The notes below the pieces were generated by a model. The model saw only the letters and a list, made by a program, of their open reading frames with translations, was not told the DNA's origin and made no database searches. A DNA stretch of 50,680 nucleotides, from the NCBI GenBank assembly GCA_020845935.1, contig JADLEV010000019.1, positions 1-50,680 of the forward strand. Direction: 5' to 3'. Position 1 is the stretch's first letter. Each line of letters starts with the position of its first letter. This stretch comes from Gammaproteobacteria bacterium (lineage in GTDB: Bacteria; Pseudomonadota; Gammaproteobacteria; Ga0077536). Positions 28,697 through 38,502 of the stretch are shown piece by piece. The translations under genes and the position numbers were made by a program.

Positions 28697-29140
28697 ATGC
28701 CGGAATATTCCAATTCGTCCGAAGTATCTGTACCAGAGATGTTGGCCAGGTTTGGGATTGCGCCGACTTCGCAGCGCTTGCGGATCGGCGAAATCCTGTT
28801 GACCGAGAAGCAGCACTTGTCCGCCGATCAGATCATCGCGAAGTTGCGCGAGGTTGGGGCCTCGGTTTCCAAGGCGACGGTGTACAACACGCTCGGCCTG
28901 TTTGCGCGCCGTGGGCTGGTTCGAGAAATCATTGTTGACCCTACCCGGATTTTCTACGACAGCAACACCGTCGATCACCATCATTTTTACGATGTCGACA
29001 ACGGCGTCCTGCTCGATATCGATACGGAGGGTCTGCGGTTGGCGGGATTGCCGACGCCTCCGGAGGGCACGACGCTGGACGGTGTTGACGTGATCGTCCG
29101 AATCAGGCGCAATCCGGCCGCTCACGCGGCAATCACCTGA
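28697..29140 (+). CDS. Fur-family transcriptional regulator, Irr-like (no cysteines)
   Basis: FGIAPTSQRLRIGEILL...HLSADQIIAKLREVGASVSKATVYNTLGLFARRGLVREI...DHHHFYDVDNG. Confidence 0.88.
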   Translation: MPEYSNSSEVSVPEMLARFGIAPTSQRLRIGEILLTEKQHLSADQIIAKLREVGASVSKATVYNTLGLFARRGLVREIIVDPTRIFYDSNTVDHHHFYDVDNGVLLDIDTEGLRLAGLPTPPEGTTLDGVDVIVRIRRNPAAHAAIT

Positions 29141-29262: not shown

Positions 29263-29338
29263 GCCGGGGTAGCTCAGTTGGTAGAGCAATCGATTCGTAA
29301 TCGATAGGTCGCAGGTTCGACTCCTGTTCCCGGCACCA
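29263..29338 (+). tRNA. tRNA-Thr (CGT)
   Basis: GCCGGGGTAGCTCAGTTGGTAGAGCAATCGATTCGTAATCGATAGGTCGCAGGTTCGACTCCTGTTCCCGGCACCA; loop TTCGTAA gives CGT; encoded CCA. Confidence 0.97.
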
Positions 29339-29393: not shown

Positions 29394-30044
29394 GTGATCA
29401 AGCTCTACGGTGCGGCACTCAGCAACTACTTCAATATCGTCAAACACAATTTGCTGGAAAAAGGAGTTGCCTTCGAAGAGGTGATGGTTCGGCCGAACAA
29501 GGAGCCGGCAACCCTGGCCAAGAGTCCGATGGGCAAGATTCCGTTCATCGAAACGGAACAGGGGTCACTCGCCGAGTCGGCCGCAATCCTCGACTATCTC
29601 GAGGAACGTTTTCCGCAGCCGGCCATGTATCCGAACGATCCGTTCCAGCGCGCCAAGGCACGCGAGCTGATGCGCATGGTGGAGCTGTATATCGCCGGGC
29701 CGTCGCATCGTCACGCGATGGAGGTATTTTTCGGGGCACCGCGATCGCAGTCCGCCTACGCTGAGGTCAAACCTCAAGTGGAACTCGGCGTCCAGGCGCT
29801 GGCGAGGCTGGTGCACTTTGGTCCCTTTGTACAGGGTGCAACGTTTGGCAACGCAGACATCTGCCTGTTCCACAACATCAATTCGGCGCGTGCGATCATG
29901 CTGGCAGTTTATCAATGGGACATCTTGTCCGCCGTGCCGGGGTTGGAGCAGTGTCTGGCGGCCATCGGGGCGCGACCGACGACCAAGACTCTGGTTGCGG
30001 CGATGGAGGCGGCACGTGCGGCGATGCTGGCGCAACAACATTAG
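29394..30044 (+). CDS. Glutathione S-transferase family protein
   Basis: MIKLYGAALSNYFNIVKHNLLEKGVAFEEVMV...SPMGKIPFIETEQGSLAESAAILDYLEERFP. Confidence 0.9.
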   Translation: MIKLYGAALSNYFNIVKHNLLEKGVAFEEVMVRPNKEPATLAKSPMGKIPFIETEQGSLAESAAILDYLEERFPQPAMYPNDPFQRAKARELMRMVELYIAGPSHRHAMEVFFGAPRSQSAYAEVKPQVELGVQALARLVHFGPFVQGATFGNADICLFHNINSARAIMLAVYQWDILSAVPGLEQCLAAIGARPTTKTLVAAMEAARAAMLAQQH

Positions 30045-30053
30045 GCAGCGGCC

Positions 30054-31067
30054 ATGATCATCGATTGCCACGGCCATTACACGACCGCGCCCGAGGCGCT
30101 CGGGCGCTACCGCGAGCAGCAACTGGCGGAATTGAAAAAGGATCCGAAACCGTCCTCCAGCAAGGGATCGCTGATCATCAGTGATGACGAGATCCGCGTC
30201 AGCCTCGAAAACGCCCAACTCAAATTGCAGCGGCAGCGTGGCACGGACCTGACCATCTTTTCGCCGCGGGCGAGTGCGATGGGCCATCACCTCGGCGATG
30301 CCGCGACCAGTCGTTTCTGGACCGAGCACTGCAACGAGCTGATCCATCGCGTCGTGGCCCTTTATCCTGACAACTTCGTCGGTGTCTGCCAATTGCCGCA
30401 GAGTCCCGGCGTACCTCCGGCACAGGACTGTGTCCGGGAACTCGAGCGCTGTGTCAACGAATTCGGTTTCATCGGCTGCAATCTCAACCCGGATCCCTCG
30501 GGCGGGTACTGGACCGATCCGCCGCTCAGCGATCGCTACTGGTATCCGCTCTACGAGAAGATGTGTGAGTTGGACGTGCCAGCGATGATCCACGTGAGTG
30601 CCGCCTGCAATCCCTGTTTCCATACGACCGGGTCACACTATCTCGGCGCCGACACGACGGCGTTCATGCAGATGTTGACTTCGAACCTGTTCCGCGACTT
30701 CCCGTCGCTCCGGTTCATCATTCCGCATGGCGGCGGCGCCGTGCCGTATCACTGGGGCCGCTTCCGCGGCATCGCCCAGGACTTGGGCAAACCACCATTG
30801 ACGGAACTGCTGTTGCAGAACGTGTACTTCGATACCTGCGTCTATCATCAACCGGGCATCGATTTGCTGCTGCAGGTGATTCCGGCGGAGAACATCCTGT
30901 TCGCGTCGGAGATGGTCGGTGCGGTTCGGGGCATCGATCCGGAAACCGGCCATTATTACGACGACACCAAGCGCTACATCGATGGCAACGATGCCCTGAC
31001 CGCGGAGCAACGCCGCTGGATCTTCGAGAGCAATACACGTCGCGTGTTTCCCCGATTGCGCTGCTGA
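30054..31067 (+). CDS. ligJ: Amidohydrolase-family 4-oxalomesaconate hydratase (LigJ-like)
   Basis: MIIDCHGHYTTAPEAL...NLNPDPSGGYWTDPPLSDRYWYPLYEKMCELDVPAMIHV...IIPHGGGAVPYHWGRF...ILFASEMVG; next to LigK- and LigU-like genes. Confidence 0.82.
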   Translation: MIIDCHGHYTTAPEALGRYREQQLAELKKDPKPSSSKGSLIISDDEIRVSLENAQLKLQRQRGTDLTIFSPRASAMGHHLGDAATSRFWTEHCNELIHRVVALYPDNFVGVCQLPQSPGVPPAQDCVRELERCVNEFGFIGCNLNPDPSGGYWTDPPLSDRYWYPLYEKMCELDVPAMIHVSAACNPCFHTTGSHYLGADTTAFMQMLTSNLFRDFPSLRFIIPHGGGAVPYHWGRFRGIAQDLGKPPLTELLLQNVYFDTCVYHQPGIDLLLQVIPAENILFASEMVGAVRGIDPETGHYYDDTKRYIDGNDALTAEQRRWIFESNTRRVFPRLRC

Positions 31068-31113
31068 TACACTGAGGCCCGGTTCCGCCGACAACAATTC
31101 TGGAGGCTCTCTC

Positions 31114-32859
31114 ATGCAGAGGTCCTGGGATAAAGACAAGCTCATCCGCGTGAACATGACGGAGCAGACGGTAGCCGTCGAACCGTTCCCGGATGAATGG
31201 AAGTTGCTCGGCGGTCGAGCTTTGTCGGCGAAGATTCTGTTGCGGGATTGCGACCCGACCTGTGACCCGCTGGGTCCGGGAAACGTCCTGACGCTGCTGC
31301 CGGGCGTTCTGTCCGGCACCGCGGCGCCAACCTCCGGCCGGCTGTCGGTCGGCTGCAAGAGTCCTTTGACCGGTGGCATCAAGGAAGCAAGCGCCGGTGG
31401 AGAGCCTGCCCAGGATCTGATGAAGCTTGGCTATCGCGGCATCATCGTCACCGGGCAGCCGGCGGATCGCTCCAAATTGTGGGGGCTCGAAGTCGATGTC
31501 AATGGCGTTCGGTTGATCGCGGCCGATTCCTATCGCGGCATGCTGAACTACGCGATGTGCGCACGCTTGCTCGCCAATTATTCCAGCGATGCCTCGGTCA
31601 TCTCGATCGGCCCGGCCGGAGAAATGCTGTTGTCGGGCGCTTCGGTAGCCTGCACGGATCGAAGCAAGGATCGCCGTCCGGCACGGCATGCGGCACGCGG
31701 CGGGGTCGGCGCGGTGATGGGGTCGAAATGCCTGAAATGGGTGGTGGTCGATGCGGGCAAGGCACCGGTTCGACAGCCAGCCGATCGCCCGGGCTTCGCG
31801 AAGTTCGCCAAGGCATTCAGCAACGACTACCTGACCAAGGGGCGCCACGAGACGTTCAAGTGGGGCACCAGTGCGGTCGTGCCGATCGCCAACATGCTGA
31901 ACACGTTTCCCTACCGAAATCGCACCGAAGGTCAGAATCCGCATTTCGAGAGACTGGACGGTGCCCGCATCCGCGAGTCATTCGCGACCCGAGGCGGTGA
32001 AATGCATGCGTGCATGAATGGCTGCATCGTTCGCTGTTCGAATGTCGTACATGATGCCAGCGGCGATTACCTGACTTCGGCACTGGAGTTTGAAACGCTG
32101 ACACTGCTGGGCTCCTGTTGCGACATCAACCATTGGGAGGATGTCGCGGAACTTGATCGGCTGTGCGACGAACTGGGTGTCGATACGATCGAAACCGGCG
32201 CGGCAATAGCGGTAATGATGGACTCCGGCGGTATTCCCTGGGGCGACGCAGAACGAGTCAAGACATTGCTCCGTGACGATGTTCGGCAGGGGACCGAACT
32301 GGGCCGTTTGATTGGCAATGGAGCGGTCGCCGTGGGCAAGGCGCGCCATCATCCTCGCGTGCCGGTCAGCAAAGGTCAGGCCATCCCGGCCTGGGACCCA
32401 CGTTCGATGAAGGTCGTCGGGGTCACCTATGCGACGAGCGCGCAAGGTGCCGATCACACCGCCGGCCTCATCGTGGATCCGGTGATTTCCGGTCGCGACG
32501 CGGTCATCAAGTCGCAGGAAGTACAGATCGTCAATGCCGCGACGGATTCATCCGGCATGTGCACTTTTCTAGCGGTGTCTCTCGACGAACTGCGCGCGTT
32601 TTACGGGCACTTCTACGGCCATGAGGTCTCGCGCGAAACCGTCGCCGACATGGGCTGGAACTGCCTCGCTGATGAATGGGAATTCAATGAACGCGCGGGT
32701 TTCACCGCGGCTGACGATGTACTGCCGGCCTGCATGGTCGAGGAAGGCATTGGCCCGGAGCATTCGATCAAGTTCGATATCGCACCGGAACTGACGGCCC
32801 TGGCGAAGGTTCGGCAGCAGCACGGCGAAAGCCTGTATCGCGGCGGCGCCGCCGGATAG
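31114..32859 (+). CDS. Aldehyde:ferredoxin oxidoreductase (AOR, tungsten-type) family protein
   Basis: GGRALSAKILLRD; SGRLSVGCKSPLTGGIKEASAGG; CMNGCIVRC (32011-32037) and DSSGMC (32544-32561) match AOR FeS-ligand/pterin motifs; SAQGADHTAG. Confidence 0.88.
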   Translation: MQRSWDKDKLIRVNMTEQTVAVEPFPDEWKLLGGRALSAKILLRDCDPTCDPLGPGNVLTLLPGVLSGTAAPTSGRLSVGCKSPLTGGIKEASAGGEPAQDLMKLGYRGIIVTGQPADRSKLWGLEVDVNGVRLIAADSYRGMLNYAMCARLLANYSSDASVISIGPAGEMLLSGASVACTDRSKDRRPARHAARGGVGAVMGSKCLKWVVVDAGKAPVRQPADRPGFAKFAKAFSNDYLTKGRHETFKWGTSAVVPIANMLNTFPYRNRTEGQNPHFERLDGARIRESFATRGGEMHACMNGCIVRCSNVVHDASGDYLTSALEFETLTLLGSCCDINHWEDVAELDRLCDELGVDTIETGAAIAVMMDSGGIPWGDAERVKTLLRDDVRQGTELGRLIGNGAVAVGKARHHPRVPVSKGQAIPAWDPRSMKVVGVTYATSAQGADHTAGLIVDPVISGRDAVIKSQEVQIVNAATDSSGMCTFLAVSLDELRAFYGHFYGHEVSRETVADMGWNCLADEWEFNERAGFTAADDVLPACMVEEGIGPEHSIKFDIAPELTALAKVRQQHGESLYRGGAAG

Positions 32860-32868
32860 GAAGGTTGG

Positions 32869-32897
32869 CCCCGGTTCGGTCTCGCGCCGAACCGGGG
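32869..32897. terminator. Bidirectional terminator-like hairpin, 11-bp perfect stem CCCCGGTTCGG/CCGAACCGGGG, 7-nt loop
   Basis: Perfect inverted repeat centred in the 46-bp gap between convergent AOR and LigK genes; no T-tract. Confidence 0.65.
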
Positions 32898-32905
32898 GTC
32901 GCGAT

Positions 32906-33598
32906 TCACAGATCGCGTATGTCGTCGAGATAGACCAGGCCAGCCTGCTCCAGCTTCGGCCGCATGTTGTAGATATCGAGCCCCAATTCCCCCGCGGCCA
33001 ATCGCGCTCGTTTTGCTGTTTCGTTTTCTTCCCGCTTGCGTGCCGCCTGTGCGACCGCGACCACGTCACGCCGCGGCACGATAACGACGCCATCGTCGTC
33101 GGCGATCACGACGTCACCCGGATCGACCAGTTGACCCGCGCAGACGATCGGCACATTGACCGCGCCAAGCGTTTCCTTGACCGTGCCCTTGGCGCTGACT
33201 GCACGCGACCAGACCGGGAATCCCATCTCGTGCATCGTCCGGATATCGCGCACGCCGGCGTCGATCACGAGGCCGACGACACCGCGAGCCAATGAAGACT
33301 GCGCCAGCAGATCGCCGAACATGCCATCGGTATTGTCCGCGGTGACCGCGACGACCAGCACATCGCCCGGTTTGACCAGTTCGAGGGCGACATGCAGCAT
33401 CCAGTTGTCGCCCGGCTGCGCCAGCACGGTCGTCGCGCTGCCGACGATGTCTCTGCCGGGGAAGGTCGGCCGCATATACGGTTTGAGCAGCCCGACGCGG
33501 CCTTGCGCCTCGTGTATCGTGGCGACGCCAAGCCCCTTGAGTGCATCGATTTCCGCGGCGCTGGCGCGCGGGAAGTTTCTTACGGCAACAGTTTTCAT
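32906..33598 (-). CDS. ligK: 4-carboxy-4-hydroxy-2-oxoadipate aldolase (LigK/RraA-like family)
   Basis: ATIHEAQGRVGLLKPYMRPTFPGRDIVGSATTVLAQPGDNWMLHVALELVKPGDVLVV...GLVIDAGVRDIRTMHEMGFPVWSRAVSAKGTVKE. Confidence 0.88.
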   Translation of the reverse strand: MKTVAVRNFPRASAAEIDALKGLGVATIHEAQGRVGLLKPYMRPTFPGRDIVGSATTVLAQPGDNWMLHVALELVKPGDVLVVAVTADNTDGMFGDLLAQSSLARGVVGLVIDAGVRDIRTMHEMGFPVWSRAVSAKGTVKETLGAVNVPIVCAGQLVDPGDVVIADDDGVVIVPRRDVVAVAQAARKREENETAKRARLAAGELGLDIYNMRPKLEQAGLVYLDDIRDL

Positions 33599-33668
33599 CT
33601 CGCCCCTTTCTTCATTGCGTCATGGATCCAGCCCGATCCATGAAGCTCCCGTGACATGTTGTTGCCCT

Positions 33669-34757
33669 TCACTCCGGCAAGCGTTCCGGCACGTAGACCT
33701 CGCCGCGAAACAGTAATCGTGCCGAACGCAGCAAACCGGCTCCGTTGATGGTCGGGATGCCGTCCGCGCCGGGTGGGCCGAGTGCAATGCGTACATCAAG
33801 CGCGCCGGACGGATGCTCGACGCGCAGCGTCTTGCTGGCACCGGCCGGTATCCGCGTGATTCCGGTCGCGACCGAACCCGGCAACACACACGCGGTCGCA
33901 ACCGAGACGGCGCCGAAGACGCCGATCGTTTCGTGGCAGATATGCGGAATGAAGGTACGTGTGTGGACGTGCCCGCCATCGCGTGCCGGCGCCAGCAGCG
34001 TCATCTTCGGCACCGTGAGCTTCGCGACATCGCCGAGTCGCATGCGCGGGCCGGCCTCGAGGCGAATCGCCTCGAGGCGTTGCTTTAAATCCTTGTTGCC
34101 GTCGAGTTCGGCCGGTGACTCGTAGCCGGTCACACCAAAATCCGCCGCGCGCAGCAACACGACCGGCATGCCGTTGTCGATGCAGGTGGCGAGGATGTCG
34201 TCGAACCGGTCGACCACTGCGCCGGTCGGCAACAGGGCACCGCAGCTCGATCCGGCGACATCGAGAAAATCACAGACGATGGGGGCGCTGGACCCCGGCA
34301 CGCCGTCAAGTGTGCAATCGCCGTCATAACGTACCCGGCCGTTGGGCGTCTGGACGATGAGTCGGCAGAGCTTACCGGTGTTGAGCATGTTGACCGTGAT
34401 CGTCGTCTCATCTCCGGTTGGCATGACCAGCCCGGTCTCAAGGGCGAACGGTCCGACGGCGGCAAGGATGTTGCCGCAGTTCTGCGCGCTGGTGGCGCGG
34501 CGCTCGCCCGGGATGACTTGCAGGAACAGGTAATCGACATCGGCATCGGGGATGGACGCCGGGCCTATCACCGCCACCTTGTTGTTCAGCGGGTGGCCGC
34601 CACCGATGCCGTCCACCTGGATCGCATCGGGACCGCCCATCACCGCGGCGAGCAAGGTGGACAACTGATCCGGATCCTGCGGCAGATCGCGGCGCAGGAA
34701 ATAGGCGCCGCGTGAGGTGCCGCCGCGCATCAACAGACAGGGTATGGCGTGTTGCAT
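33669..34757 (-). CDS. galD: PrpF-family 4-oxalomesaconate tautomerase (LigU/GalD-like)
   Basis: MQHAIPCLLMRGGTSRGAYFLRRDLP...DGIGGGHPLNNKVAVIG...SAQNCGNILAAVGPFALE. Confidence 0.86.
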   Translation of the reverse strand: MQHAIPCLLMRGGTSRGAYFLRRDLPQDPDQLSTLLAAVMGGPDAIQVDGIGGGHPLNNKVAVIGPASIPDADVDYLFLQVIPGERRATSAQNCGNILAAVGPFALETGLVMPTGDETTITVNMLNTGKLCRLIVQTPNGRVRYDGDCTLDGVPGSSAPIVCDFLDVAGSSCGALLPTGAVVDRFDDILATCIDNGMPVVLLRAADFGVTGYESPAELDGNKDLKQRLEAIRLEAGPRMRLGDVAKLTVPKMTLLAPARDGGHVHTRTFIPHICHETIGVFGAVSVATACVLPGSVATGITRIPAGASKTLRVEHPSGALDVRIALGPPGADGIPTINGAGLLRSARLLFRGEVYVPERLPE

Positions 34758-34781: not shown

Positions 34782-35747
34782 ATGACTCGGGACATCCAAC
34801 AAACAGCAGCGATTCCGGTCGCCGATCCACTTCCGGAACACACGTTGACGCCAGCGCGCGCGGCCTGGCTGGTGACGCTGGTCATGCTCGTCTGGGCCAG
34901 CAGCAGCGTAGTCGTGCGTGCCGTGTATCAGGAGATTCCGCCGGTCGGTCTGTCGTTCTGGCGCTGGCTGGTCGCCGGGTTGGTTCTGACACCATTCGTC
35001 GTGCGGCGTATCTGGCGCGATCGGGCGCGCCTTTGCCGTGGCGCCGGGCGATTTTTGTTACTCGGGATCTTCATGGTCGGCGGCGGGACCGTGCTGTTCT
35101 ATGCGCTGCAATTCACGACCGCGACCAATGCCTCGCTGGTCAATGCCACACAACCGGCCCTTACCGGCATCGCGGTATGGTTGTTACTCGGCGAGCGACC
35201 GTCGGTCCGACAACTGTTCGGCATCGGTATCGCCACCGGCGGCGTATTGATCACGGTGGCGCAGGGCAATCCCATGGTGCTGCTGTATCTGAGCTTCAAT
35301 CCCGGCGATCTGCTGGTGCTCGGTTCGGTCGCGGTCTACGCCCTGTACGCGGTGTACCTGCCGCGCTGGGCGCACGGCTTCGATCCGTTGACGGTGATCT
35401 TTCTGGTCTGCCTTGCCGGTGTCGCAGCGTTGCTGCCGTGGTATCTCGCCGAAACACTCGGCGGCAAACCGGTGCCGGTTACCCGCGCGACACTGCTTGC
35501 GGTGGGTTATCTCGCGGCCTTTCCTTCGGTGCTTGCGGTGTATCTGTGGAACCGCAGCATCGCGGTACTCGGCGCGAACCGAACCGCGATATTCGCCAAT
35601 CTGTTACCGATCTTTGGGGCGCTGCTCGCGGTCGTGTTTCTGCGTGAGCGGCTGTATCTCTATCACGGTCTCAGTCTGCTGCTGATCCTTGTTGGTATCT
35701 CGCTGGTGGTACGCGGTGCCGGCGAGGTGGTCAGACGCGCTCGATGA
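34782..35747 (+). CDS. DMT/EamA-family permease
   Basis: Ten hydrophobic segments; VWASSSVVVRAVYQEIPPVGLSFWRWLVAGLVL; LLPIFGALLAVVFLRERLYLYHGLSLLLILVGI. Confidence 0.9.
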   Translation: MTRDIQQTAAIPVADPLPEHTLTPARAAWLVTLVMLVWASSSVVVRAVYQEIPPVGLSFWRWLVAGLVLTPFVVRRIWRDRARLCRGAGRFLLLGIFMVGGGTVLFYALQFTTATNASLVNATQPALTGIAVWLLLGERPSVRQLFGIGIATGGVLITVAQGNPMVLLYLSFNPGDLLVLGSVAVYALYAVYLPRWAHGFDPLTVIFLVCLAGVAALLPWYLAETLGGKPVPVTRATLLAVGYLAAFPSVLAVYLWNRSIAVLGANRTAIFANLLPIFGALLAVVFLRERLYLYHGLSLLLILVGISLVVRGAGEVVRRAR

Positions 35748-36936
35748 TGGTCGTGATGCCCTGACCGACACCAATGCACATCGTGCACAGCGCATAACGC
35801 GCGCGGCGCTGTTCGAGTTCGATGACCGCGGCGGTCAGCAACCGCGCGCCGCTCATACCGAGCGGATGACCCAGCGCGATCGCGCCGCCATTCGGATTGA
35901 TGTGCGGCGCATCATCGGGCAGACCAAGCTCGCGCAACACGGCCAGGCCTTGCGCCGCGAACGCCTCGTTCAGCTCGATGACGTCCATCTGCTCAAGCCG
36001 CAGCCCGGCGCGCGCCAGCGCCTTGCGCGTTGCCGGCGCCGGGCCGATGCCCATGATGCGCGGCTCCACACCGGCGGTGGCGGCGGTGACGATCCGCGCC
36101 CGTGGCGTCAGGCCGTGGGCCGCAACGGCAGCCTCCGAGGCGAGCAACAAGGCGCAGGCGCCGTCATTGACACCGGATGAATTGCCGGCGGTGACGCTGC
36201 CGCCGCTGCGGAAGGGAGCGGGCAGTTTGGCGAGTGATTCGAATGTGGTATCGGGGCGCGGATGTTCGTCCTGTTCAACGCGCAGTGGTTCGCCCTTGCG
36301 CTGCGCGATCAGCACCGGCGTGATTTCCAGAGCAAGGCGGCCGGAGCGCTGCGCCGCCCCGGCGCGTTGCTGGCTGCGGATCGCGAAGGCATCCTGATCG
36401 GCGCGTGCAATCTGGTATTGCTCGGCGAGATTCTCGGCGGTCTCACCCATCGAATCGACGCCGTAGAGCTTCTTCATCAGCGGATTGATGAAACGCCAGC
36501 CGATGGTGGTATCGAAGATTTCATGGTTGCGATCGAACGCGCTCTGACTCTTGTTGAACACGAACGGCGCCCGTGACATCGACTCGACGCCGCCGGCGAT
36601 GATCAGTTCGGCTTCGCCGGTGCGGATCGTGCGCGCACCGGTCGCGACCGCATCCATGCCCGAGCCGCACAGCCGGTTGATCGTCGCCGCGGCGGTGCTG
36701 ACCGGCAGCCCGGCAAGCAGGGCGCTCATGCGTGCGACGTTGCGATTGTCCTCACCCGCCTGATTGGCGCAGCCGAGCAGCACTTCATCGAGCCGCGACC
36801 AATCCACCTTGCCGTTGCGTTCCCGCAGGGCGCGGATCGGAATGGCGGCGAGATCGTCAGTACGAACACCGGACAGGGCGCCGGCATAACGGCCGATGGG
36901 CGTACGGATCGCGTCACAGATAAATGCTTCGGGCAT
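35731..36936 (-). CDS. paaJ: 3-oxoadipyl-CoA/acetyl-CoA thiolase (PaaJ/PcaF-like)
   Basis: AFICDAIRTPIGRYAGALSGVRTDDLAAIPI; NRLCGSGMDAV; GGVESMSRAPFV; NPNGGAIALGHPLGMSGAR; CIGVGQGI. Confidence 0.88.
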   Translation of the reverse strand: MPEAFICDAIRTPIGRYAGALSGVRTDDLAAIPIRALRERNGKVDWSRLDEVLLGCANQAGEDNRNVARMSALLAGLPVSTAAATINRLCGSGMDAVATGARTIRTGEAELIIAGGVESMSRAPFVFNKSQSAFDRNHEIFDTTIGWRFINPLMKKLYGVDSMGETAENLAEQYQIARADQDAFAIRSQQRAGAAQRSGRLALEITPVLIAQRKGEPLRVEQDEHPRPDTTFESLAKLPAPFRSGGSVTAGNSSGVNDGACALLLASEAAVAAHGLTPRARIVTAATAGVEPRIMGIGPAPATRKALARAGLRLEQMDVIELNEAFAAQGLAVLRELGLPDDAPHINPNGGAIALGHPLGMSGARLLTAAVIELEQRRARYALCTMCIGVGQGITTIIERV

Positions 36937-36972
36937 GGCTGAGTCCTTGGTGGCAATCGTTGTTGACGGAGG

Positions 36973-38502
36973 TTACCGCGAACTTGTCAGTAACGGCATG
37001 TGGGCGAGGGCGCGGCGGCGCAGCAGTGGCGAGGCGCGATAGCGCGGGTCGCGATAAAAGTCGTTCAGGGCATCGAGCACGTGCACGACCTGGGCCAGGC
37101 CCAGTTGCTCGGCCCAGGCCAGTGGTCCGCGCGGATAGTTGACTCCGGCCTGCATCGCGGCATCGACGCCCGCGGCGGTACAGATGTGCTGGTGCACGGC
37201 CTCGGCACCTTCGTTGGCAAGCATGCAGACGGTACGCAGCAGCAACAACCCGGGGAAATCGTCGATCACGGAAACGGCCTTGCCGAGTGCCTGCCAGAAG
37301 CCGATGACCGGATCGAGGCTCACGGTGGCCTGATCGGCGCGGCATATCGCGATGCGCTCGGCACTTGTGAAATCGAGTGCAATGTCATGCAGCGCGACAT
37401 TCGGGTTTCCGGTCGCGGCGGCGAGTTGCGTCGCGCAACGACCATCGCTCAACAGCAGCAGCCAGGCGCCGACGCGCCAGCCGTTATCCGGCAAGGAAGG
37501 GTCGGTAGTTACCTCGATGCCCGCCGCGCGTGCCATGGTCGCGAGCGGCGCGGTCACGGATCCGAGCGAGCCATGGGCCACGCTCCGTGGTGCGGCCGCG
37601 GCCGCTGCGCTGACCGGCTCGGAATTGACCGCACCGGCGCCATAGCGGTAATGGCCGCGCTGGGACTTGCGCCCGAGGAACCCGGCATCGTTGAGTTCCT
37701 TCTGCAACAAGGACGGTTGATAACGTGGGTCCTGATAGTAGGCGGCGAATACCGAACAGGTCACCGCGTAATTGATGTCGTTGCCGATCAGATCCATCAG
37801 CTCGAACGGGCCCATGCGAAAGCCGCCCGCCTGTTTCAGCACGGCATCGATCGTCGCGCGATCGGCCGCCCCTTCCTGGGCCGCGCGCAAGGCTTCGCCA
37901 TAGAACGGCCGCGCGACCCGGTTGACGATGAACCCGGGTGTCGAGCGGACATGCACCGGACGTTTGCCCCAGGAGGCGGCGAGTGTGAACACTTGGTCCG
38001 AGACGTCGCGGTCGGTGGCGAGGCCGCTGATGATCTCGACCAGTTGCATCAGGGGCGCCGGATTGAAGAAATGCATGCCGAGGAACCGTTCCGGGCGGCG
38101 CAGCGCCGCGGCGATCGCGGTGATCGAGATTGACGAACTGTTGCTCGCGAGCACGGCGTCGTCGGCACAGATCTCTTCGAGTTCCCGGAATAACTGTTGC
38201 TTGGCCGCGAGGTCCTCGATGATGGCCTCGATCACCAGCGTGGCGTCCTTGAGTTCGGCCAGCGCGGTGCAGGGCGTGATCCGGCCGAGCAGGGCATCGC
38301 GCGCCGACGCATCGAGCTTGCCGCGTTCCACCAACCGCGCCAGGCTCGCGCCGATCTGTTCGAGTGCGCGCGCCGCGGCACCGGCAAAGGTATCGAACAA
38401 CAGCACACGATGGCCGGCTTGGGCGGCGACTTGGGCGATGCCGGCGCCCATGGTGCCGGCACCGACGACCGCGACCAGCGCGGGCGAAGACGATTCAGAC
38501 AT
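36973..38502 (-). CDS. paaH: 3-hydroxyacyl-CoA (3-hydroxyadipyl-CoA) dehydrogenase, PaaH-like
   Basis: VAVVGAGTMGAGIAQVAAQAGHRVLLFD; FLGMHFFNPAPLMQLVEII; STPGFIVNRVARPFYGEALR; second HCDH C-domain, as in PaaH. Confidence 0.88.
   Translation of the reverse strand: MSESSSPALVAVVGAGTMGAGIAQVAAQAGHRVLLFDTFAGAAARALEQIGASLARLVERGKLDASARDALLGRITPCTALAELKDATLVIEAIIEDLAAKQQLFRELEEICADDAVLASNSSSISITAIAAALRRPERFLGMHFFNPAPLMQLVEIISGLATDRDVSDQVFTLAASWGKRPVHVRSTPGFIVNRVARPFYGEALRAAQEGAADRATIDAVLKQAGGFRMGPFELMDLIGNDINYAVTCSVFAAYYQDPRYQPSLLQKELNDAGFLGRKSQRGHYRYGAGAVNSEPVSAAAAAAPRSVAHGSLGSVTAPLATMARAAGIEVTTDPSLPDNGWRVGAWLLLLSDGRCATQLAAATGNPNVALHDIALDFTSAERIAICRADQATVSLDPVIGFWQALGKAVSVIDDFPGLLLLRTVCMLANEGAEAVHQHICTAAGVDAAMQAGVNYPRGPLAWAEQLGLAQVVHVLDALNDFYRDPRYRASPLLRRRALAHMPLLTSSR

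Follow-up and report, generated by a model that had tools for sequence, protein, structure and literature searches.

Genes at the locus

The window analysed here is the whole of contig JADLEV010000019.1 (50,680 nt), one contig (C20) of a 2.16-Mb gammaproteobacterial bin that is about 62% complete. It carries a gene for a large subunit of the aldehyde oxidoreductase/tungsten oxidoreductase (AOR/WOR) family, flanked by genes of the protocatechuate/gallate 4,5-cleavage pathway (Table 1). Gene identities were assigned by Pfam, NCBIfam and PDB comparisons. An earlier note on this DNA had listed five genes here, for a glutathione S-transferase (GST), LigJ, the AOR, LigK and LigU; open reading frames and domains agree with all five and with their positions. 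The first three lie on the plus strand, separated by 9 bp (GST/LigJ) and 46 bp (LigJ/AOR), and the hairpin between the convergent ends of the AOR gene and ligK is a probable bidirectional terminator. Because of the short same-strand gaps and the closing hairpin, the GST–LigJ–AOR trio looks like one transcription unit, as judged from the layout.

All three of the LigJ, LigK and LigU members of the 4,5-cleavage gene set are found in the window. LigJ possesses His6, His8, His180 and Glu286, and matches LigY-type hydrolases (E about 5e-64) far more poorly than solved 4-oxalomesaconate hydratases (2gwg, E 7.6e-156). No ring-cleavage dioxygenase was found within the window, as already remarked in the earlier note, and no gene for a small subunit, ferredoxin or flavin partner was identified beside the AOR gene. 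Genes of the PaaH/3-oxoadipyl-CoA thiolase type follow at 35731–38502 on the strand opposite to the AOR gene, with LigK, LigU and EamA genes in between.

Table 1. Features of the AOR–lig locus (window coordinates)
Feature	Position	Strand	Basis
tRNA-Thr (anticodon CGT)	29263..29338	+	ARAGORN
Glutathione S-transferase family protein, 216 aa, GTG start	29394..30044	+	GST_N domains; best solved relative 3lxz, E 2.8e-37
LigJ, 4-oxalomesaconate hydratase, 337 aa	30054..31067	+	Amidohydro_2; 2gwg, E 7.6e-156
AOR/WOR-family large subunit, 581 aa, Class I-like tungsten oxidoreductase	31114..32859	+	AFOR_N + AFOR_C; best solved relatives 9mqx, 1aor
Hairpin, 12-bp stem, between convergent AOR and ligK ends	32869..32897		Fold -29.5 kcal/mol for 55 nt, z -3.2
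LigK, 4-carboxy-4-hydroxy-2-oxoadipate aldolase, 230 aa	32906..33598	-	RraA-like domain; TIGR02798, 347.5 bits (cut-off 304.5)
LigU, 4-oxalomesaconate tautomerase, 362 aa	33669..34757	-	PrpF domain; NF033377, 491 bits (cut-off 440); 6p3j, E 1.5e-116

An apparently uncharacterised AOR subfamily

Both halves of the window AOR, AFOR_N (residues 9–213) and AFOR_C (243–550), score far over cut-off, and its best solved relatives are aldehyde-oxidising enzymes. These domains and the retention of the expected residues uphold its earlier description as a protein of the tungsten-pterin/4Fe-4S type. The motifs CMNGCIVRC and DSSGMC are both present, with the refinement that the former gives the four putative [4Fe-4S] cysteines a CX3CX3C...C spacing, whereas the solved AORs compared have CX2CX3C. 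The weakest match among solved relatives was BamB of class II benzoyl-CoA reductase (4z3w; E 7e-13), which shares the AOR/WOR fold and the tungstopterin family with the window AOR but aligns over the N-terminal domain only; the window AOR keeps the aldehyde-enzyme residues E313 and H448. A BamB-like identity was rejected on account of this weak, partial match.

The earlier note had looked to a family tree to place the protein. It joined a clade of 80 sequences (57–70% identity) apart from PfAOR, AaAOR, WOR83, YdhV and a BamB-like protein; a literature search found no characterised member of this clade, so that the note's objection of a clade with known unrelated function does not arise. The neighbouring clade consists of AORs from the same order at 34–37% identity. 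No terminal branch in the gammaproteobacterial part of the tree is longer than that of the window AOR, which is separate, with moderate support, from the orthologues of its own family, a placement that fits either acquisition or an old paralogue. Members of the subfamily come from Gammaproteobacteria, Myxococcota and a small number of other phyla, and some genomes encode more than one; at three gammaproteobacterial loci (L047, L056, L061) members of the clade form tandem pairs.

The second-shell residues of aldehyde-oxidising AORs (PfAOR numbering), Thr243, Glu313 and His448 (T252, E327 and H448 in the window AOR), are kept in 80/80 clade members, as are Cys304, Cys308 and Cys483; Cys300 is kept in 79. 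Three tyrosines near the tungsten, by contrast, are replaced, in the window AOR by Phe, Trp and Leu. All 80 members have Phe in place of Tyr312; at the Tyr427 position 77 have Trp and three Phe, and at that of Tyr452 79 have Leu and one Phe. Tyr427 positions the aldehyde in the reviewed AOR mechanism, is kept in most characterised AORs and rarely varies (PMC12096430). The second clade of AORs (34–37% identical; L012–L031 and others, from most genomes of the order) has the CX3CX3C spacing in common with the first, but retains Tyr312 and Tyr427.

A Class I WOR consists of the large subunit only, with no WorS, WorN or WorABC gene alongside, and the window AOR, whose neighbours are GST, LigJ and LigK, conforms to this pattern. 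Like PfAOR (1aor), CsWOR87 and BmWOR of Brevibacillus massiliensis, it is a single AFOR_N/AFOR_C subunit without an adjacent small-subunit gene, and it shares with these enzymes T243, E313, H448 and the four cysteines; some of its relatives also have ThiS-like, MoeA and TupA-like genes as neighbours. It differs in having Phe/Trp/Leu for Tyr312/427/452 and CX3CX3C for CX2CX3C. AaAOR of Aromatoleum aromaticum (8c0z), a Class III WOR, is likewise a WOR large subunit from an aromatics-degrading proteobacterium, but is accompanied by small and NAD-linked subunits. In the tree, AaAOR is joined by a 30%-identical orthologue from family relatives (L032), but not by the window AOR. Altogether, the window AOR apparently belongs to an uncharacterised subfamily of stand-alone, Class I-like WORs: the AOR/WOR family is known, and what appears to be new is a subfamily with an altered active site.

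AOR and lig genes in other genomes

The order comprises 36 genomes, all of one family, so that comparison covers 35 others. Nine of these encode an AOR orthologue (eight full-length at 66–70% identity, one fragment at 59%), and in none of the nine does LigJ, LigK or LigU lie near it. A true LigU occurs in the window's genome only among the 36; the best matches elsewhere in the order are PrpF-family proteins, 32–39% identical. Across the genome collection, 80 AOR loci (57–70% identity) were inspected with flanks of up to 10 kb each side where contigs allow, and LigJ, LigK or LigU was present at 0/80. Conversely, no AOR was found beside LigJ in 13 other genomes of the class sample (about 1.5 kb each side, larger for five) or in larger regions from three further AOR-bearing genomes; at these gammaproteobacterial loci the neighbours of LigJ were lig or unrelated genes. 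In the protocatechuate 4,5-cleavage operon of Paraburkholderia caribensis (L167), LigJ, LigK and LigU stand together as in the window. Canonical operons of this kind, however, also keep LigA, LigB, LigC and LigI together and contain no AOR, while the window's genome has LigAB and LigC on other contigs.

The idea of a dedicated AOR–LigJ/K/U system was not supported by this comparison, as the AOR adjoins ligJ/K/U in no other genome examined, and a conserved AOR–Lig operon was rejected for want of a second case. A GST–AOR pairing fared no better as a conserved arrangement: a 42%-identical GST lies ahead of the AOR at L048 and L067, whose genomes are nearly identical, and is absent there in the other family members. 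Our literature search found no link of an AOR with 4-oxalomesaconate, nor of an AOR with protocatechuate and tungsten. The AOR–lig pairing of the window thus looks like a one-off and, being unconserved, carries little weight in itself. The subfamily may matter more: it spans Gammaproteobacteria and Myxococcota, many of the myxococcotal members lie with pterin genes and some with tungstate-uptake genes, and its departure at Tyr427, a residue of the proposed AOR mechanism (PMC12096430), bears on whether aldehyde oxidation needs that tyrosine.

A gap of 55 bp separates tRNA-Thr(CGT) from the GST gene that follows it. Genes for tRNAs are common sites of integration and rearrangement. No att-like repeat was seen, the tRNA 3′ end occurring once in the window, and integration at tRNA-Thr was rejected in view of the missing second copy and of the lack of a composition break. 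Upstream of the tRNA gene, at 28697–29140, lies a gene for a Fur-family regulator whose nearest models are IrrA/Irr, below cut-off.

Pathway and cofactor genes of the host genome

A genome-wide search for ligAB, as proposed earlier, located a LigAB pair on contig C68, and a LigC 57% identical to that of the canonical Paraburkholderia operon lies on contig C74. LigI was not found in the bin and may be in its missing 38%. The genome thus encodes LigAB and LigC besides LigJ/K/U; the suspected tie of the AOR to this aromatic route is not borne out as a conserved linkage. At L162 (9988–11695), the LigAB pair is followed by a gene for pterin-4a-carbinolamine dehydratase, an unexpected neighbour.

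The search for tungsten/molybdenum cofactor machinery was likewise answered. Contig C40 encodes a TupA-like protein, whose best NCBIfam match, TupA, scores 202 bits and so falls short of the cut-off of 400 bits; permease-like and ABC-ATPase frames are close to its gene. A MogA-like protein is encoded on contig C44. One of two MoCF_biosynth matches was discarded as a pterin gene, having proved CinA-like. MoaA, present in 29/36 genomes of the order, was not found in this about 62% complete bin. On these homology grounds, the genome encodes most of the 4,5-cleavage pathway and at least part of what tungstate uptake and pterin handling require.

Neighbourhoods of AOR relatives

In Myxococcota, a common gene order is ThiS-like–AOR–MoeA–MoeA/PBP, followed at L070 by TupA-like and permease-like genes. 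ThiS-like WorX genes stand beside some Class I WORs (PMC13328260), and the equivalent gene beside myxococcotal AORs makes it likely that the members of the subfamily are tungsten enzymes. At several gammaproteobacterial loci, a divergent P450 gene accompanies genes for the AOR, a pyridoxal-phosphate (PLP) decarboxylase and a class-III aminotransferase, and at some (L058, L062, L063) homogentisate dioxygenase (hmgA) and kynureninase genes are close by. The AOR gene directly precedes that of a class-III aminotransferase at L092, L094, L103 and L111. L092 also has genes for a DAO-family oxidase, alanine dehydrogenase and a PuuR-like regulator, a setting that reads as if the AOR substituted for the aldehyde dehydrogenase of amine breakdown. 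In such gammaproteobacterial settings, aldehydes could arise from amines. Judged by these contexts, members of the clade appear to be general-purpose aldehyde oxidoreductases that serve different pathways.

Candidate roles for the window AOR

We consider it probable, though by no means secure, that the window AOR is a general, Class I-like aldehyde oxidoreductase that was put beside the lig genes by lineage-specific rearrangement and has no conserved place in protocatechuate/gallate 4,5-cleavage. In this scenario, the GST–ligJ–AOR unit, facing ligK–ligU, would have been assembled next to tRNA-Thr in this lineage, and the AOR, a single tungsten-bispterin/4Fe-4S subunit, would convert an aldehyde to the acid and pass the electrons to a ferredoxin encoded elsewhere. 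Candidate substrates would be aromatic aldehydes that lead to protocatechuate or gallate, compounds of the phenylacetaldehyde type, and 4-carboxy-2-hydroxymuconate-6-semialdehyde (CHMS). The contrast drawn earlier between an oxygen-dependent pathway and an enzyme type best known from anaerobes is weaker than supposed: BmWOR comes from an obligate aerobe and is active in air (PMC9424855), so that the dependence of the pathway on oxygen does not in principle speak against such an enzyme.

Three observations weigh against this account. Replacement of all three tyrosines lowers confidence in aldehyde oxidation itself. Gaps of just 9 and 46 bp, and a hairpin at the end of the trio, point to co-transcription with ligJ over a chance neighbourhood. 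Finally, both other class-sample genomes with this AOR also have LigJ, on other contigs (Fisher P about 0.001, from two genomes only and confounded by lifestyle).

Were the AOR to have a role in 4,5-cleavage, the likeliest would be to supply aromatic acids from aromatic aldehydes: vanillin, protocatechualdehyde and 4-hydroxybenzaldehyde would be turned into the acids destined for LigAB by an enzyme co-expressed with GST and LigJ. The compact one-strand layout and the presence of LigAB and LigC in the same genome argue for this role, as does the acceptance of aromatic aldehydes by characterised AORs (PMC13328260, PMC9424855). LigJ is moreover encoded somewhere in 7/32 AOR-bearing genomes tested, all seven gammaproteobacterial and one belonging to the class sample as well, compared with 14/387 class-sample genomes. 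This co-occurrence could, however, be explained by lifestyle as well as by function, and the count is inflated, since four of the seven have a common AOR neighbourhood and probably a close relationship. Since the linkage is absent from every other genome examined and nine other genomes of the order have the AOR without a true LigU, we regard the entry role as unlikely, if worth keeping in mind. Aldehydes of the phenylacetaldehyde type, derived from aromatic amino acids or from amines, are an improbable substrate. In that case the relevant neighbours would be the downstream PaaH/PaaJ-type genes rather than lig; the gammaproteobacterial homologues, with decarboxylase and aminotransferase genes beside them in the vicinity of hmgA and the kynureninase gene, would fit, as would oxidation of phenylacetaldehyde by AaAOR (PMC13328260). 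Yet the PaaH/thiolase genes sit on the other strand beyond LigK, LigU and EamA, and no decarboxylase or aminotransferase gene was found next to the window AOR.

The aldehyde formed in the course of 4,5-cleavage is CHMS, the product of LigAB, and the AOR might in principle oxidise it directly to 4-oxalomesaconate, bypassing LigC and LigI. The undetected LigI and the position of the AOR gene directly behind that for the next enzyme, LigJ, would suit such a bypass. Given that a LigC with 57% identity to a canonical one is encoded, that LigI may simply lie in the unrecovered part of the bin and that no AOR homologue has such a gene context, we consider it extremely improbable; the stricter form, with the AOR as a necessary replacement of LigC, was rejected because LigC is present. 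Scarcely less doubtful is the wider proposal that a tungsten subfamily with a rebuilt active site (Phe/Trp/Leu and shifted Fe-S ligands) was recruited to oxidise a 4,5-cleavage aldehyde, for instance CHMS to 4-oxalomesaconate, which, together with the bam-type genes of the bin described below, would place tungsten in oxygen-dependent as well as oxygen-independent aromatic breakdown.

An apparent bam-type operon in the same bin

A second AOR-family protein of the bin, encoded on contig C54 (L217, 9216–11315), is BamB-like, matching the Geobacter class II benzoyl-CoA reductase subunit 4z3w over its full length (E 2e-232). The position of Cys322, the tungsten ligand of BamB (PMC12096430), is conserved in the alignment. 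Bam-like genes run on one strand from 1296 to 11875 of L217 in the order D-E-F-G-H-I-B-C, with BamC/D/E/F/G/H/I-like products assigned from domains and gene order, and C54 thus looks to carry a complete class II benzoyl-CoA reductase (bam) operon. Class II benzoyl-CoA reductase is associated with anaerobes, and LigAB is an oxygen-dependent ring-cleavage enzyme; the same gammaproteobacterial bin seems to contain genes for both (C54 and C68). Contig C54 also carries genes recognised by eye as rpoN, hprK, rapZ and lpt, which fit a gammaproteobacterial chromosome, so that gross mis-binning, though conceivable, is not obvious.

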